From positions 1 to 51,583 of the forward strand of contig JAJRQD010000161.1 of the NCBI GenBank assembly GCA_024280435.1: a stretch of DNA of 51,583 nt, in the 5' to 3' direction. Positions 32,577-44,375 of the stretch are shown piece by piece; position 1 is the stretch's first letter; the number at the start of each line of letters is the position of its first letter. Source of the stretch: an archaeon. GTDB taxonomy: Archaea; Asgardarchaeota; Heimdallarchaeia; Heimdallarchaeales; Kariarchaeaceae. Below the pieces are notes generated by a model. That model ran no database searches, had not been told where the DNA came from, and saw nothing but the letters and a program-made list of their open reading frames with translations. The translations under genes were made by a program, and so were the position numbers.

Positions 32577-34394
32577 ATGTTAAAGTTCCAAATATGGAAA
32601 ATCCTACCGTTAATCCTTATTATTACAGCAGGGTTATTTGCTACCCCCGCACAAGCAGATCCATTTATTTTACCCAAAATAGATGGGGCTGGTCCAACAA
32701 TAGATGGTAATATTGCCGCAGCAGAATGGCAAGACTTCCTGCTATTCAACGCAACTGTGAACAATCAAGATGCACAGATAAGAGTTTCAAGTGATGATAA
32801 CAACCTATACATTGGTTTCAATTTTACAGCACCAAACTTTGTTCCTGTGGATGATAATGGATTCAATGCCACTATCACAGAGAATCTTGACACTCATGAT
32901 TGGGTTGTGTTCCAATTTGATAATAATCTAGATCAGAAGCCAATGGGTACAGCAGATTCACCAGATGATGCAGTGATATTTGATCAGTACACCAATACAG
33001 CAGTTGATGCGTTGATCAATGGAACATCATATATTGCGGATATTGATAATGAAGGAAATGCCGATGGTACATATGCATTTGCAAATGTTACAGATGCACT
33101 TACCTATGAGATTTCCAAACCATTATCTTCAGGAGATTTGAATGGTTCAGATATTGCAATAGAAAGAAGTATCTTGCAATTTAGAATTAATAATTTCTTC
33201 AATCAAACATCAAATTCATCATCTTACTCAAGCACCCAGTGGTTTACATTCCGAGTGAATGAAACAGGAACCGGAGTGGCTTACAAGAGTGTTTCCAACA
33301 CCACCATCTCACTGAGTATAGTATCAGATGATTCCAGTAAATACACCGGTCTCAGTACAGTACTTGATCAGTATGGATTCGATGTGACAACCTCTGTTGG
33401 CAATCTCACATTTGGAGATGTGGATCTCAATATAATTGTGATAGATGAGACATCTAGCGTGGATGATAACAATCTAGATGAACTAGTAACATATATCGAG
33501 CTTGGTGGAAAGGTAATTATCTTTCTTGCAGAGGGATCAGGTGATTCTTCCAAAATAGCTGAAAAATTCAATCTTGAATATCTATCAGAAAGTGTAAAAT
33601 CACCTGATAACGAGACAATGCTCACATTCAGCTCCACAGGCTTTAATTCATCCTTGAGATATATCACTGCCAATACCAATGTAACAGATAGAGTGATCAA
33701 AGATGTCGGGTTTACATCCGGTGCATTCAATAAGAGCAGTTTATTTGACTCAAAATATATGTTCAGACAAGAATATCATATGCAGGATATTTTCAATATT
33801 GATAATTTTCTCTATAGTAATGATACAGTAAATAGTAATATCACCATCGGTGCATCGATTGATCTGATGAAAACTGGTAGAGTAAGTATTTTTGCAGGTA
33901 ATTCAATAGTAACAAATGAATTTATCAACTATGGAGATAATATGCATTTATTACTGAGAATGATGCCATGGAATGCTAGATTAGTAAATACACTGAAGAT
34001 CAATTCAGTTGAGATTGATGATCATGCAGTCAATAAAACAGAACCAATTAAGATCACAATTAATGTCACAAATGGATTTGATGAGTACAATGCAGATATC
34101 AATGTCAAGGCCATGCTAGTCAGAAATGATCAAGCAGTATTTACACTTGACCTCAGCTCCACAACATCAGTGTATGAAGGAGTGATTGAGACCAATGTAT
34201 ATGGAAATATGCAGATTGAGGTGTTAGCTTATCTTGATGGATATGGCTATGCAGAGGGAGAGATACAACAGGTATTTATTGATACACAATTGAATCTGTA
34301 CAATAGTTTTTCAGATATTAGCACATTGATAATGGGAATATTTGTATTGTCAGTCTTTATTACTGTTTTCACAATTATCAAAAGTAAAGAATAA
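32577..34394 (+). CDS. Secreted, membrane-anchored protein with CBM9-like and GATase-like domains
   Basis: Residues 1-27 are a signal peptide ending APAQA-like (ATPAQADPF). Residues about 30-220 start IDGAGPTIDGNIAAAEW and continue through QIRVSSDDNNLYIGFNF, as in CBM9-like/ethylbenzene-dehydrogenase-type domains that bind sugars or heme. Residues about 245-410 hold a Rossmann-like region with LNIIVIDETSSVDDNNLDEL and GGKVIIFLAEG, resembling the DUF4350/class I glutamine-amidotransferase-like fold. An immunoglobulin-like stretch and a C-terminal anchor (LIMGIFVLSVFITVFTIIKSKE) follow. It stands outside the cell, tied to the membrane. No catalytic residues were identified. It converges on the next gene with one base between stops. 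Confidence 0.75.
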   Translation: MLKFQIWKILPLILIITAGLFATPAQADPFILPKIDGAGPTIDGNIAAAEWQDFLLFNATVNNQDAQIRVSSDDNNLYIGFNFTAPNFVPVDDNGFNATITENLDTHDWVVFQFDNNLDQKPMGTADSPDDAVIFDQYTNTAVDALINGTSYIADIDNEGNADGTYAFANVTDALTYEISKPLSSGDLNGSDIAIERSILQFRINNFFNQTSNSSSYSSTQWFTFRVNETGTGVAYKSVSNTTISLSIVSDDSSKYTGLSTVLDQYGFDVTTSVGNLTFGDVDLNIIVIDETSSVDDNNLDELVTYIELGGKVIIFLAEGSGDSSKIAEKFNLEYLSESVKSPDNETMLTFSSTGFNSSLRYITANTNVTDRVIKDVGFTSGAFNKSSLFDSKYMFRQEYHMQDIFNIDNFLYSNDTVNSNITIGASIDLMKTGRVSIFAGNSIVTNEFINYGDNMHLLLRMMPWNARLVNTLKINSVEIDDHAVNKTEPIKITINVTNGFDEYNADINVKAMLVRNDQAVFTLDLSSTTSVYEGVIETNVYGNMQIEVLAYLDGYGYAEGEIQQVFIDTQLNLYNSFSDISTLIMGIFVLSVFITVFTIIKSKE

Positions 34395-38095: not shown

Positions 38096-39967
38096 ATGTT
38101 CAGTTTACGCTATATAAATTCAAAAAGAGCTGTCAGCCCGGTAGTATCATCAATGCTGTTAATTGCATTGATTGTAGCTGCGGGTGTATCAGTGATGGTG
38201 GTACTTGATAATGCAAACACAGTACCTACTGTTGAGACAACTGATAATGAGTTAACTCCTTCAAATAATCTTCGCACTGATAAATTAAATATCTCTATAT
38301 CATTACAGAGATCATCATTCGATCTATCAATCTATCAGAGTGAGGGTAAAAAATACTATACCAGCCTCTCGGTATCAGTTGATTACTATGGATTGAGCAA
38401 TGATCCTGCATTCATCTACATTGCAGATGTTGATGTGTTTGTATATGGTGAGAAACTGGATGAGATTGCATCATGGGAGATTGATAGCAGCTCAATCACA
38501 GGTGCTGAGATACAGTTTGATAATAATGGAGATATTGCAGGATACAGACAGGCAATCAACTCAACAGCCACATATATTGTAAATCTATCAGATAAGGATA
38601 TCAAGAATGCAAGAATATTTGTTGATACCACATTCACATATAAGGCTAAAATTGGTACTGAGATTGACGCCACTTCTGGTAGATTCACTATCACACAATC
38701 AGTGGAGAATGAGGAGATATCAAAAATAGTATTCAATACTATCTATAAAACTGTGAATATATTCCACTATGGACAGAAGATAAATGATAAAATAACTGCT
38801 TTATACGAATGGGTGGACGTTCTGAACACGTACAATGGTTCAAACAAAGTATATTTCCTGTTTGATGAGAAAGCCAATGTATTTGATATCAAAAAAGACG
38901 AGCAGAATACAAGAATTGCCAATGTAACTGAATTTGCAAACAGTACAGATCTTGTGATATTTGCAGAATGGGCAATTCACAAAGATGCATCTGCGTTTGT
39001 TCAGAAATTATTTGATCTGAATGTACCAATGACATTTGGAGGCTCTGTAAGAAAGATATGGAAAAAAATTGATACACAGCTGACTGAGGATATAATTGGA
39101 GTGATACCAAATGTTGCAAAACACAAAGTTAAATCAAAATGGGCAACATTCAGTAATTCATACAAATTCTACTCAGTACAGTCTAACTTACTTGTTGATA
39201 TTGCAGGTATTGGAGAGGCAAGTTATGTGGAGAAGAAGGCATATGATGCAGCATACATCAACTCTACAATTGCAACAAAATTAGGAGAATCTAATATTTT
39301 GATTGCAGAACAATTTACAGGTGGAAAAGTATATTTCAATCATTCAAATGGAGTACTGCTCTCATTAAGAGAGGCCAATGCAACTATTGGTACACCGCTT
39401 ATCACCAGTTTTGTTATCAATCACGAGGCAGTTGCACTATCAAGAACTACTTTCAGAAATATGTTATTCTATGCATTCAGTGATCCAGAGAGAATTATCA
39501 TCTCAAATGCAAAACTAGAGATAACTTCATTTACTATGACTGCAAAAACCAAAAAAAGTGGATTCAGAGAGGATCCTGCATTCTCTATCTCTGCAATTGT
39601 AACCGGTGGGAATATAGATGGAGGTTCTGTAAACCTGACACTTCACATGGATAAAAAAATCAAATGGAAGGACAAAAAAGGATATGATGCACAGGTGATT
39701 ATAGCAGGAAATATATACAAAATCCCATTTAAAATAGACAAGAGCAAGAGTTCTTGGGTAATTAATCTACAGATTGGTAAGTATCATAAACAGGTGATCA
39801 ATGAGGGCGATACAATCAGTATATCCATACCAACTAAGAAATCATTGAATTCTGAGAAAGTATTCACACCAGTATGGCAGGCCTACTCATGGAATGTGGC
39901 AATTGAATATCGAACAAGTGATGGTGCAATAGGAGCACCTGCCACTGCAACTACAAAATCACCTTAG
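38096..39967 (+). CDS. Giant pilin-like surface protein, lysine-rich paralogue
   Basis: Residues 9-38 read SKRAVSPVVSSMLLIALIVAAGVSVMVVL, a class III (type IV pilin-like) signal with a processing site at or near the Ala-Val of RAVSP and a long hydrophobic assembly helix. Ordinary archaeal pilins are 100-200 residues; this has 623. After the helix come a beta-rich domain (about 55-215), a Rossmann/GATase-like domain (about 215-430; STDLVIFAEWAIHKDASAF and VPMTFGGSVRKIW), and a C-terminal beta domain with IVTGGNIDGGSVNLTL. It is a tandem paralogue of the next gene, but carries many extra lysines (KKIWKKID, MDKKIKWKDKKGYDAQ). It may be a pilus tip, adhesin or pseudopilin. No pilus ATPase or peptidase is nearby. 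Confidence 0.78.
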   Translation: MFSLRYINSKRAVSPVVSSMLLIALIVAAGVSVMVVLDNANTVPTVETTDNELTPSNNLRTDKLNISISLQRSSFDLSIYQSEGKKYYTSLSVSVDYYGLSNDPAFIYIADVDVFVYGEKLDEIASWEIDSSSITGAEIQFDNNGDIAGYRQAINSTATYIVNLSDKDIKNARIFVDTTFTYKAKIGTEIDATSGRFTITQSVENEEISKIVFNTIYKTVNIFHYGQKINDKITALYEWVDVLNTYNGSNKVYFLFDEKANVFDIKKDEQNTRIANVTEFANSTDLVIFAEWAIHKDASAFVQKLFDLNVPMTFGGSVRKIWKKIDTQLTEDIIGVIPNVAKHKVKSKWATFSNSYKFYSVQSNLLVDIAGIGEASYVEKKAYDAAYINSTIATKLGESNILIAEQFTGGKVYFNHSNGVLLSLREANATIGTPLITSFVINHEAVALSRTTFRNMLFYAFSDPERIIISNAKLEITSFTMTAKTKKSGFREDPAFSISAIVTGGNIDGGSVNLTLHMDKKIKWKDKKGYDAQVIIAGNIYKIPFKIDKSKSSWVINLQIGKYHKQVINEGDTISISIPTKKSLNSEKVFTPVWQAYSWNVAIEYRTSDGAIGAPATATTKSP

Positions 39968-40203
39968 AATACTAAATTTCAAATAGCGGTAATTATATTT
40001 TATGTATAAACAATTATATTATTCAGACATTAATTTCTGTACTCGAATAAAACAGACAAAAAATGTGTAATTCTATTAAAAGTTATTTACTTTAATTTAT
40101 AATGAAAATTAATGTGTAACTAGTTTTTCTATCCGCTATTTCTTTAAATAATATATTACAGAAGATTTATCTTCTAGTTTGCATATATTATACTGAAGAC
40201 AAT
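39968..40203. other. Spacer and promoter between the pilin-like paralogues
   Basis: No gene seen in 236 bp. CATATATTATA at 40182-40192 is the likely TATA element of the next gene. A small palindrome, GAAGATTTATCTTC, lies at 40161-40174. Two GTGTAA boxes (about 40064 and 40114) occur in the middle without known meaning. Confidence 0.4.
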
Positions 40204-42087
40204 ATGTTCAGTGTATACTATATAAAATCAAAAAGAGCAGTCAGTCCTGTAATATCATCAATGCTGTTAATCGCATTGATTGTAGCTGCGGGTGTATCAA
40301 TCATGGTGGTGCTTGATAATGCCAACACAGTTCCAACTGTCGAGACGAATGATGATGCTTTGAATATATTCGGAGGACTACCCTCTGATGAATTAAACAT
40401 CTCAATATCACTACTTAAATCATCAATCGATCTATCAATCTACCAGAGTGAGAATAAAAAATACTATACCAGCCTATCAGTAACGATTGATTACTACGGG
40501 ATGAATAGTGACCCTGTATTCATCTACATTGCAGATATTGATGTGTTTGTATATGGAGAGAAACTGGATGAGATCTCCCCCTGGATAATAGATAGTACCG
40601 CCATCACAGGTGCGGAGATACAGTTTGATAACAATGGAGACATTGCAGGATACAGACAGACAATCAACTCAACAGCCACATATATTGTAAATCTATCAGA
40701 TAAAGATATAAAGAATGCAAGAATATTCTATGAAACAAGTTTCTCATATCGTGCGAAAATTGGTACTGAGATTGATGCCACTTCGGGTAGATTCGCAATC
40801 ACACAATCAGTGGAGAATGAGGAGATATCAAAAATAGTATTCAATACTATCTATAAAACTGTGAGTATATTCCACTATGCACAGAGCTTGATTGATACTA
40901 CATCCGCACTATATCAGTGGGTAGATATTCTGAACACCTACAATGGTTCAAATAAAATATATTTCCTGTTTGATAGCTCAGACATATATGATATCAGTCA
41001 GAACGAGCAGAATACGAGAATTGCCAATGTAACTGAATTTGCAAACAGTACAGATCTTGTGATATTTGCAGAATGGGCAATACATACCAGTGCATCTGCA
41101 TTTGTTCAGACAATTTTTGATCTGAATGTACCAATGACCTTTGGTGGCTCTGTTAGAAATATATGGGATTCAATAGATGCCACACTGACCGAACAGATTA
41201 TTGGAGTGATACCAAATGTTGTTCAGCATAATTTCAATCCCAGATGGAGTACAATTACCAATTCATATCAATTCTACTCAGTACAATCAAATCTGCTTGT
41301 TGATATTGCAGGAACTGGAGAGGCAAGTTATGTGGAGGAGAATGGATTTGATGCGGCATATATCAACTCCTCAATTGCAACCAAACTAGGAGAATCTAAT
41401 ATACTGATCAGATTGAAATTATTTGGTACTATTGATTTTAACCATACAGATGGAGTACTGCTCTCATTAAGAGAGGCAAATGCGACTTATAACACACCTC
41501 TAATCACCAGTCTTGTTATCAATCATGAAGCAGCTGCACTATCAAGAACTGCATTCAGAAATATGTTGTTCTACGCATTCAGTGATCCAGAGAGAATTAT
41601 CATATCAAATGCAAGATTGGAGATAACATCCTTCACCATGACTGATACAATTAGTAATGGTTGGTTTGGTTTACAATTCAGAGAGGACCCTGCATTTGCA
41701 ATCTCTGCAATTGTAACCGGTGGGAATATAGATGGAGGTTCGGTTAATCTTACCCTGAATATGGATTCAGATATCAGATGGACCACGACAAATGGATATA
41801 CTGCACAGGTAATAATTGCAGGAAATATATATGCGATCCCATTCAACATAATACAGACCAGTAATGCATGGGTAATCAATCTTGCAATAGGTGACTATCA
41901 TAATATGGTGATAAATGAGGGTGATACAATCAGTATTGCAATTCCGGAGAGTGGTGCATTGAATTCAAGAGGATCATTCTCATTCGCATCCATATGGGAG
42001 GCCTACTCATGGAATGTGGCAATTGAGTACAGAACCAGTGATGGTGCAATAGGTGCTCCTGCCACTGCTGCTACATCACCACCCTGA
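40204..42087 (+). CDS. Giant pilin-like surface protein, neutral/acidic paralogue
   Basis: A 627-residue paralogue of the preceding gene, aligned over its full length. The N-terminus KSKRAVSPVISSMLLIALIVAAGVSIMVVLDN is again a type IV pilin-like signal. The same beta, Rossmann/GATase-like and C-terminal beta domains follow. Stretches such as VLLSLREANAT and RIIISNARLEITSFTMT are almost identical, but surface segments differ in charge: RNIWDSIDATL replaces RKIWKKIDTQL, and MDSDIRWTTTNGYTAQ replaces MDKKIKWKDKKGYDAQ. The C-terminus ends GAIGAPATAATSPP. The two may form a heteropolymer or bind different ligands. Confidence 0.78.
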   Translation: MFSVYYIKSKRAVSPVISSMLLIALIVAAGVSIMVVLDNANTVPTVETNDDALNIFGGLPSDELNISISLLKSSIDLSIYQSENKKYYTSLSVTIDYYGMNSDPVFIYIADIDVFVYGEKLDEISPWIIDSTAITGAEIQFDNNGDIAGYRQTINSTATYIVNLSDKDIKNARIFYETSFSYRAKIGTEIDATSGRFAITQSVENEEISKIVFNTIYKTVSIFHYAQSLIDTTSALYQWVDILNTYNGSNKIYFLFDSSDIYDISQNEQNTRIANVTEFANSTDLVIFAEWAIHTSASAFVQTIFDLNVPMTFGGSVRNIWDSIDATLTEQIIGVIPNVVQHNFNPRWSTITNSYQFYSVQSNLLVDIAGTGEASYVEENGFDAAYINSSIATKLGESNILIRLKLFGTIDFNHTDGVLLSLREANATYNTPLITSLVINHEAAALSRTAFRNMLFYAFSDPERIIISNARLEITSFTMTDTISNGWFGLQFREDPAFAISAIVTGGNIDGGSVNLTLNMDSDIRWTTTNGYTAQVIIAGNIYAIPFNIIQTSNAWVINLAIGDYHNMVINEGDTISIAIPESGALNSRGSFSFASIWEAYSWNVAIEYRTSDGAIGAPATAATSPP

Positions 42088-42131: not shown

Positions 42132-44375
42132 ATGGTATTAATCTATAAATTAGTAGAAAGCTTTTCTAAAAAGAATGAATTAACCATCATAATGAAATTA
42201 AAATCCAGCATATATTTTCTATCTCTGTTTATTTTGTTAATCCCAGTATATACCCCGGGATTTATTGATAAACAGGATAATATAAGAGTTGATATAGATC
42301 AGAAAAGTTCTATTGAATTATTCGAGGGAGCTCTATCCTATCTAGAGAGCAAGAGTAGTAATTTCAGTAATTTCATAACATATTCTGATGAGTTTAACAG
42401 TAGCACACTGGTTTACTATGGTAAAGTAGGACTTGCAGGTACTGGATTGAACTTACTTGAGGCAAGAAAGAATGATGCCAGCTGGGTGGGTACAGATGTT
42501 AATGATAGATTACTTAGCCTTGCCACAGATATTGCAGACTTTCTGATCTCTATTGCCAGTGTGGACAATGCAACACACAGTATCATCTCACTCAATAACG
42601 AGAATGATCTGGTGGATCTATCATTGGAGTTTGGACTGTTGGGAATTACGGAATTCTTTATTGAACTGTATAATCAGACACAGACAGCACTGTATGCAGA
42701 TTTTGCAACTAAATTAATGCAATCTGTAAATGATCTTGCAATCACAAATTCAACAGATATGTATTTCAGATATGATAGTTATATAACAATGAATAACAGC
42801 TGGACACCTTATAATGATTTTGATTATTATTTCAGTAATCTATATCCAGAACATGAGTTTACTTTCTCAGGCATGTCATTTGGTACTGCGGGTATTATTA
42901 GCACTGCAATTAAATTCCTTGATATAGTAGATGCAAATAGCAATCTAGTCGGTACTATGATGAATAAATCAATTCATTATCTGTGGAGATCCAGTAGGAT
43001 AAATGGTAGTGAGCTATCTTTCTACACTGCGGAGGAGTATACAGGAATGGAATCCACCTCAATTGCAACAGGAGTTGCGGGAATAGGTAATACGTATCTA
43101 GAGCTTTACAGTCTAACTGCAAATAATACATATCTAGACAATGCAGTAGGTATAATGCACTGGTTGAATGGTACCACAAGTGGAGAGAGAAGGACGGGTA
43201 CTTCCTGGATAATCAATGATACAGTGGATGATGATCTTGAATTTGGACTTGAATTCGGATTGGCAGGTATCATTGATTTTCTTGATAATCTGTATGATTA
43301 CACCAAAGATATAAATCAGACAGTTTTGATCAAAGAGGCAACTATATCTTTGAGGAATTACGGTACACTTGATAGTGATCTGCTATCATTTCCAGAGAGA
43401 TATATAGATGGTAGTTTCATACTTAAAGGATCTACTTCCTACAGCTATGGTTCTGGAGGAATACTTGAGCTGTTCAATAAAATAGGTATTAAGTATAACA
43501 ATTCCTTCTACAATGAATACGCAGCTCAGATAAAAAATTATCTTAAACAAACATATCAGATGATTGATGGATACACAGCAATCTACACCAGAGAGACATT
43601 TAATTTTGAAACCAATCCCAAGATTGGAATATCTGGTACTTTGCTGTATCTATCTTCCTTCACACAGGGTTTATTAGATTTTGATTATAGTAAAATAGTT
43701 TTTCCCGAGACTGAACTAGGATACAGTAGTGTGAAAACACTTGTTCTTAACAACACGGGTGAGGCTACTCTGAGAATATTCAATATTACAGTGGGAGAGT
43801 ACTTTACAGTAGATAATACAGAATTAAATATTGCAGGTAATGCTTCTGCAGAGTTAAATATCACATTCACACCACTCAAAGAGGGAATAATTGGTACAAG
43901 TATTAATTTTACCAATGGATTGATGCAGTATTCAATAATTATAGAGACTTCTGGTTATGACAATCCTCAATTAGTATCATTCACCGGTCCTAGTAATAAT
44001 ACGGAATTCAATGAGTACAAGAAGTTGGATTTTGTGCTAGAGGTATCAGATCAATCAGCAATATCATCTGTGGTGATGAGGCTTATGAATGAGAATGAGA
44101 CTGATATACTGAGCAGTGCAATGATTTTTGAGGATAATGTATACAAAGGTAGTTGGGACCCTGCAAACTATGCCAATGGTACATATATTCTTGATTTTGA
44201 GATCACAGATGCTCTCAATCATAAGACCATTGTTAGATATGTATACAGTATAGGTATCTATACACCTGCACTGGAAGAGAGAATATTCAGTGATACAGTA
44301 CTGTATGGTATTATAATAGCAACAGTAGTCTTACTGATCATTGCGATTATTTTAACAAAGAGAATTAAATCTTAA
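42132..44375 (+). CDS. Secreted LanC-like toroid with immunoglobulin-like domains and membrane anchor
   Basis: A signal peptide (MKLKSSIYFLSLFILLIPVY) starts at an internal ATG, 42192; the frame also opens at an ATG at 42132. Residues 60-510 have seven regularly spaced helical repeats with G-x-x-G turns (near residues 100, 168, 251, 314, 376, 440 and 499, for example FGLAGIIDFL and GVAGIGNTYLEL), as in the LanC (alpha/alpha)7 barrel. The zinc-binding Cys-Cys-His of LanC is missing; the protein has no cysteine. Residues 525-620 form a choice-of-anchor-D-like beta domain (KTLVLNNTGEATLRIFNITV), 625-715 an Ig-like domain, and 725-747 a membrane helix with a basic tail. It is extracellular; substrate unknown. 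Confidence 0.7.
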   Translation: MVLIYKLVESFSKKNELTIIMKLKSSIYFLSLFILLIPVYTPGFIDKQDNIRVDIDQKSSIELFEGALSYLESKSSNFSNFITYSDEFNSSTLVYYGKVGLAGTGLNLLEARKNDASWVGTDVNDRLLSLATDIADFLISIASVDNATHSIISLNNENDLVDLSLEFGLLGITEFFIELYNQTQTALYADFATKLMQSVNDLAITNSTDMYFRYDSYITMNNSWTPYNDFDYYFSNLYPEHEFTFSGMSFGTAGIISTAIKFLDIVDANSNLVGTMMNKSIHYLWRSSRINGSELSFYTAEEYTGMESTSIATGVAGIGNTYLELYSLTANNTYLDNAVGIMHWLNGTTSGERRTGTSWIINDTVDDDLEFGLEFGLAGIIDFLDNLYDYTKDINQTVLIKEATISLRNYGTLDSDLLSFPERYIDGSFILKGSTSYSYGSGGILELFNKIGIKYNNSFYNEYAAQIKNYLKQTYQMIDGYTAIYTRETFNFETNPKIGISGTLLYLSSFTQGLLDFDYSKIVFPETELGYSSVKTLVLNNTGEATLRIFNITVGEYFTVDNTELNIAGNASAELNITFTPLKEGIIGTSINFTNGLMQYSIIIETSGYDNPQLVSFTGPSNNTEFNEYKKLDFVLEVSDQSAISSVVMRLMNENETDILSSAMIFEDNVYKGSWDPANYANGTYILDFEITDALNHKTIVRYVYSIGIYTPALEERIFSDTVLYGIIIATVVLLIIAIILTKRIKS

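Follow-up and report, generated by a model that had tools for sequence, protein, structure and literature searches.

Two neighboring genes of an archaeon from the Kariarchaeaceae encode giant pilin-like proteins that are closely related but carry very different numbers of lysines, which raises the question of why one cell would hold two versions of a surface protein that differ mainly in charge. An earlier note, made from the letters of the contig (51,583 nucleotides, referred to here as the window), had proposed a duplication followed by selection for opposite charge. We confirmed that the two genes, P1 and P2, are adjacent intact open reading frames of 623 and 627 amino acids (aa) on the plus strand, both with the pilin-type N terminus KRAVSPV, and that the peptides cited in that note occur in the two proteins. 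The alignment of P1 and P2 contains 478 identical positions out of 630 (77%). The features of the locus are listed in Table 1. The spacer between the genes would be long enough for a separate P2 promoter and contains a TATA-like candidate element, catatattata, ~20 nt 5′ of the P2 start.

Table 1. Features of the P1/P2 locus (coordinates of the window).
Feature	Coordinates	Strand	Basis or remark
Four-CBS-domain protein, 5′ of P1	37088..37960	+	Immediately precedes the single pilin gene of G001 as well
P1, giant pilin-like surface protein, Lys-rich, net charge 0, pI 7.07	38096..39967	+	ORF, alignment
P1 class III signal peptide (KRA/VSPV) and hydrophobic H-domain, helix 15–40	38096..38215	+	Profiles, structure model
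P1 pilin beta domain, residues 41–212	38216..38731	+	Homology to ~190-aa short pilins of the sister family
P1 ectodomain, residues 213–623, GATase1/ThuA-like Rossmann part, then Ig-like beta-sandwich, 41 Lys	38732..39964	+	Predicted fold
AT-rich spacer between P1 and P2, 236 nt	39968..40203	+	
P2, giant pilin-like surface protein, Lys-poor, net charge −34, pI 4.36	40204..42087	+	ORF, alignment
P2 class III signal peptide and H-domain	40204..40323	+	Profiles
P2 pilin beta domain, residues 41–212	40324..40839	+	Homology
P2 ectodomain, residues 213–627, 4 Lys	40840..42084	+	
LanC-like neighbor: secreted LanC-like alpha-toroid, ASH/Ig, Big_7, and C-terminal transmembrane segment (TM), net charge −44	42132..44375	+	Domain matches

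Both proteins start with a class III (type IV pilin) signal and a hydrophobic helix at residues 15 to 40; P2 differs from P1 at 5 of the first 40 residues. Matches to the archaeal pilin profiles were under the curated cut-offs, with E values of 0.0014 (P1) and 0.0063 (P2) for Pilin_N, PF07790 (19.9 and 17.8 bits; cut-off 25.2), and of 0.0065 and 0.0027 for TIGR02537 (16 and 17.2 bits; cut-off 20). The orthologue from a genome of the same genus, G001, exceeds the TIGR02537 cut-off (23 bits). In both proteins, the signal is followed by a ~190-aa pilin domain and a ~410-aa ectodomain. The signal, the hydrophobic helix, and the beta domain behind the helix are as in archaeal type IV pilins and archaellins, and the ~190-aa relatives of P1 and P2 are ordinary-sized pilin-like proteins. 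In contrast, P1 and P2 are three times longer, carry the extra ectodomain, and are not adjacent to pilus assembly genes. Since their size, and that of their full-length relatives (602 to 678 aa), is far above the about 100 to 200 aa of small pilins, we file them as pilin-anchored proteins and not as ordinary pilins; at such a size, they may be anchored as single molecules rather than form filaments. The ectodomain had no match in any library (Pfam families and PDB sequences), and the earlier view that no known family has this ectodomain was supported by these and by wider relative searches. No viral relative and no Rfam match was found.

Structures were predicted with AlphaFold2 from a shallow alignment (mean pLDDT of 64 and 66 for the two models). 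In Foldseek searches with the model of pLDDT ~64, the Rossmann part resembled the ThuA-like protein 4jqs (TMt of 0.58, probability of 1.0, 6% identity) and CTP-synthase glutaminase domains. The remaining part resembled Ig-like or CBM-like sandwiches, with a TMt of 0.4 to 0.5 to adhesin domains. Both matches are likenesses of fold only. Whole-chain matches to integrins (TM of 0.1 to 0.15) were ignored. With modest confidence, the ectodomain is thus predicted to consist of an amidotransferase/ThuA-like Rossmann domain and an Ig-like sandwich; the Rossmann-like domain suggested previously gains support from both methods, at a model confidence that is only moderate. While this part is predicted to have the class I glutamine amidotransferase/ThuA-like fold, neither P1 nor P2 contains a single cysteine, which makes a catalytic Cys-His-Glu triad impossible. 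Without the nucleophile Cys there can be no amidotransferase chemistry, and by that criterion the proteins are not enzymes of this class. When a DUF4350-like protein encoded at 32577 was compared with the Rossmann part, hhalign gave a probability of 0.2%, and a relationship was rejected. That gene (32577–34394) encodes a secreted protein with a CBM9-like N terminus (by eye), a weak DUF4350 match, a C-terminal TM, and a net charge of −46.

P1 contains 51 lysines and P2 contains 14. In the alignment, lysine is present only in P1 at 39 columns and only in P2 at 3 (binomial P = 5.6e-9), and it is the most skewed of all 20 residues; the next are Ile (4:17, P1 versus P2) and Val (13:3). The sum of Asp and Glu is 66 in both copies, with 54 of the 66 sites in common, and the net charge is 0 for P1 and −34 for P2. 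Nearly all of the lysine excess is found in the ectodomain, from residue 213 on (41 in P1 versus 4 in P2), and the pilin domain is charge-matched (10 versus 10 lysines).

Surface placement of the lysines was judged from hydrophobicity in outgroups and predicted secondary structure. The columns where P1 gained lysine are more hydrophilic in five outgroups than the other changed columns (P = 0.004) and than all remaining ectodomain columns (P = 1e-4). In the predicted model, 26 of the 37 lysine-gain columns are coil, and at 36 of the 37, the P2 residue is polar or glycine. By these measures, the added lysines occupy hydrophilic sites of the predicted surface, most of them in loops, and are not scattered at random between core and surface, the pattern that would have spoken against selection on charge. 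Glycosylation as the cause of the exchange of Ser, Thr, or Asn for Lys was rejected, both copies having 10 N-X-S/T sequons. What stands of the proposal in the earlier note is a duplication with a directional change of surface charge; the charges are not opposite, one copy being neutral and the other acidic.

The suggested comparison of synonymous and nonsynonymous changes between P1 and P2 yielded a dS of 0.51, a dN of 0.15, and a dN/dS of 0.30, alike in the pilin domain and the ectodomain. Lys-changing codons account for 55 of the 146 nonsynonymous changes in the ectodomain; when they are left out, ectodomain dN is 0.117, equal to that of the pilin domain (0.115). Both genes are thus maintained, and lysine substitution is an extra directional component on top of the common rate. 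As far as codon changes tell, both copies are shown to be intact and under purifying selection; their branches in the tree are of similar length (0.15 and 0.17). Two identical nucleotide runs of 65 to 67 nt shared by P1 and P2 (the longest run in 2000 shuffles was 63 nt) may reflect mild gene conversion or constraint.

The polarity of the lysine change rests on the states of the outgroup, which is distant (36%). At the P1-only lysine columns, lysine is found in 3 of 37 positions of G001, in 0 of 39 of G008, and in 7 to 9 in other relatives. Since relatives have few lysines at these columns, a gain in P1 is the most likely origin; about 35 lysines would have been added, neutralizing its outer domain, a count derived from their absence in relatives that include no close sister. 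By the same comparison, P2, the copy that adjoins the LanC-like gene, has retained the acidity seen in the same-genus relative.

Relatives were sought among 57 relatives of the window genome, and then across the order and phylum. When contigs of genomes were searched, a query built from the P1/P2 alignment retrieved five loci, whereas P2 alone retrieved nothing. The full-length form was found only in one family of Heimdallarchaeota: in the window genome, in G001, and in G004, G007, and G008 (another genus), the latter four being metagenome-assembled genomes of Candidatus Heimdallarchaeota. A sister family has ~190-aa proteins that match residues 1 to 190 alone, and the giant form therefore looks like a pilin domain with a ~410-aa addition. 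A C-terminal fragment resembling the giant-pilin family (by eye) lies upstream of a LanC-like gene in G005. In G004, another locus (L044, 7083–9032, contig C57) encodes a further, distant giant-pilin paralogue with a net charge of −14 versus +14 for the other copy of this genome; an actin-like gene lies on C57 as well.

The tandem pair is restricted to the window species; G007 and G008 have single copies. According to the earlier note, relatives with only one gene and no conserved charge difference would count against the proposal. The pair is indeed not conserved, as G001 was found to hold one acidic gene (net charge of −49) between the same neighbors: its contig contains the CBS gene, one pilin gene, and, after 103 nt (104 nt in the window, where the true start of the LanC-like gene is likely 42192), a signal peptide where the LanC-like gene would begin. 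Of the downstream gene, the contig includes only 26 residues, so that it was identified from its location and its signal peptide. The possibility that the assembly break hides another tandem copy was rejected, as the LanC-like start follows the single pilin so closely. The single copy between the same neighbors indicates that the tandem duplication is local, and, judged from the loci sampled, it is specific to the lineage of the window, in line with the tree.

Charge also varies among relatives. The single orthologues of G008 and G004, which are 52% identical, have net charges of −27 and +10 and lysine counts of 12 and 41 (P = 8e-5), whereas for 12 other syntenic gene pairs of these two genomes, net charge differs by no more than 5. 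When G007 was compared with G008, the pilin had a charge of +13 to +17 versus −28 and the LanC-like protein 0 to +4 versus −34; cytoplasmic neighbors were unshifted. A shift confined to exposed proteins of G007 fits adaptation of such proteins to habitat. The columns involved in charge swings coincide in two lineage pairs more often than expected among polar columns (8 versus 3.1, P = 0.003), at ~24% identity and with uncertain alignment of loops. Since swings occur between single-copy orthologues too, a change of charge needs no hetero-partner. As read from these comparisons, charge retuning is characteristic of the surface locus in general and is not confined to the P1/P2 pair.

We tentatively favor the reading that P1 and P2 are paralogous, pilin-anchored surface proteins that offer alternative surface charges, following the ecoparalogue principle; they appear to be lineage-specific tandem duplicates of a surface protein special to one Heimdallarchaeota family. 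Both copies would be processed by the prepilin peptidase of the genome and anchored or polymerized via their near-identical N-terminal helix. Given this common helix, the two outer domains may act as exchangeable surface modules with one shared function, adhesion or scaffolding, under differing ionic or binding conditions, probably with the LanC-like/Ig protein as a partner. The acidic form would suit high ionic strength or cation-rich surroundings, and the Lys-rich form would suit lower ionic strength or acidic surfaces. The different pI values at high identity are consistent with this. In Haloarcula marismortui, the archaellins FlaA2 and FlaB are ecoparalogues stable at different ionic strength (PMC6528647). 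There, too, filament-type paralogues with different properties are kept in one archaeal genome; however, salinity-dependent stability and expression were measured for them, while P1 and P2 are known from sequence.

Alternatively, neutral, Lys-rich P1 could pack against acidic P2, or against the acidic LanC-like neighbor, in one filament or lattice. Adjacency of the genes, the shared helix, and the charge-matched pilin domain permit such co-assembly, the neighbor is acidic, and the two divergent archaellins FlaB1 and FlaB2 of Halorubrum lacusprofundi, which likewise share their assembly part, provide a precedent, as they have been shown to co-assemble in one filament (PMC7349177). We nevertheless consider this heteropolymer unlikely, since no pair is kept in G001, G007, or G008, charge swings are also seen in single-copy orthologues, and P1 is neutral rather than basic. 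In another reading, the exposed domain is a target to which viruses, grazers, or partner cells bind; a charge switch would change the ligand or allow escape by altering adherence to surfaces, DNA, or partner cells, and the duplication would provide two specificities. This would agree with the recurrent, coinciding swings at polar columns and the predicted adhesin-like sandwich. It too seems improbable to us, because dN/dS is low overall, with no burst of noncharge changes, and because the acidic sites are largely kept, so that the change is one-directional to lysine and not diversifying. Functionless drift through base composition or codon usage is very unlikely and was rejected as the cause of the lysine gain: P1 is slightly more AT-rich (GC of 0.357 versus 0.379), but synonymous changes are only mildly skewed (about 50 versus 36), Asn and Ile, with AT-rich codons, move oppositely (9:16 and 4:17), and the effect is limited to hydrophilic columns of the ectodomain.

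On the favored reading of alternative surface charge, the tandem pair may enable the cell to alternate between, or combine, differently charged surface coats or filaments, and paralogues that differ directionally mainly in surface lysines would represent a natural experiment on how surface charge fits a filament or adhesin to its environment. The surface appendages of Asgard archaea are poorly known, and literature searches returned no paper describing giant Heimdall pilins like these. It is possible, though we hold it with more doubt than the reading itself, that the locus represents a new class of giant Heimdallarchaeota pilin-anchored surface proteins, with dead glutamine-amidotransferase-like and Ig-like adhesin domains, a surface LanC-like partner, charge repeatedly retuned by lysine gain, and one species holding both states as a tandem pair.

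The LanC-like/ASH/Big_7 protein has strong matches in seven of nine genomes of the family, and its gene adjoins the giant pilin or lies one gene away in G004, G007, and G008. The protein, with its Hydin-like ASH domain, is kept beside the giant pilin at loci L042, L043, L041, and L077; extracellular display of a LanC-like fold is unusual. Elsewhere in the window genome, which is 84% complete, a prepilin peptidase (Peptidase_A24, contig C65) and pilus-type assembly ATPases (T2SSE, contigs C291 and C46) are present, while Pfam gave no match to the platform protein T2SSF (PF00482). On C291 (L099, 477–2755), a pilus-type ATPase (384 aa) is followed by a polytopic membrane protein (374 aa); this two-gene unit is likely a pilus motor and platform, although the T2SSF profile misses the latter protein. 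Another giant protein, of the VSPVI type, is encoded beside a ~600-aa secreted protein on contig C310 of the window genome (L037, 2320–7228; 994 aa) and on contig C131 of G004 (L075, 1954–7702; 1287 aa), possibly representing a second giant-pilin system.
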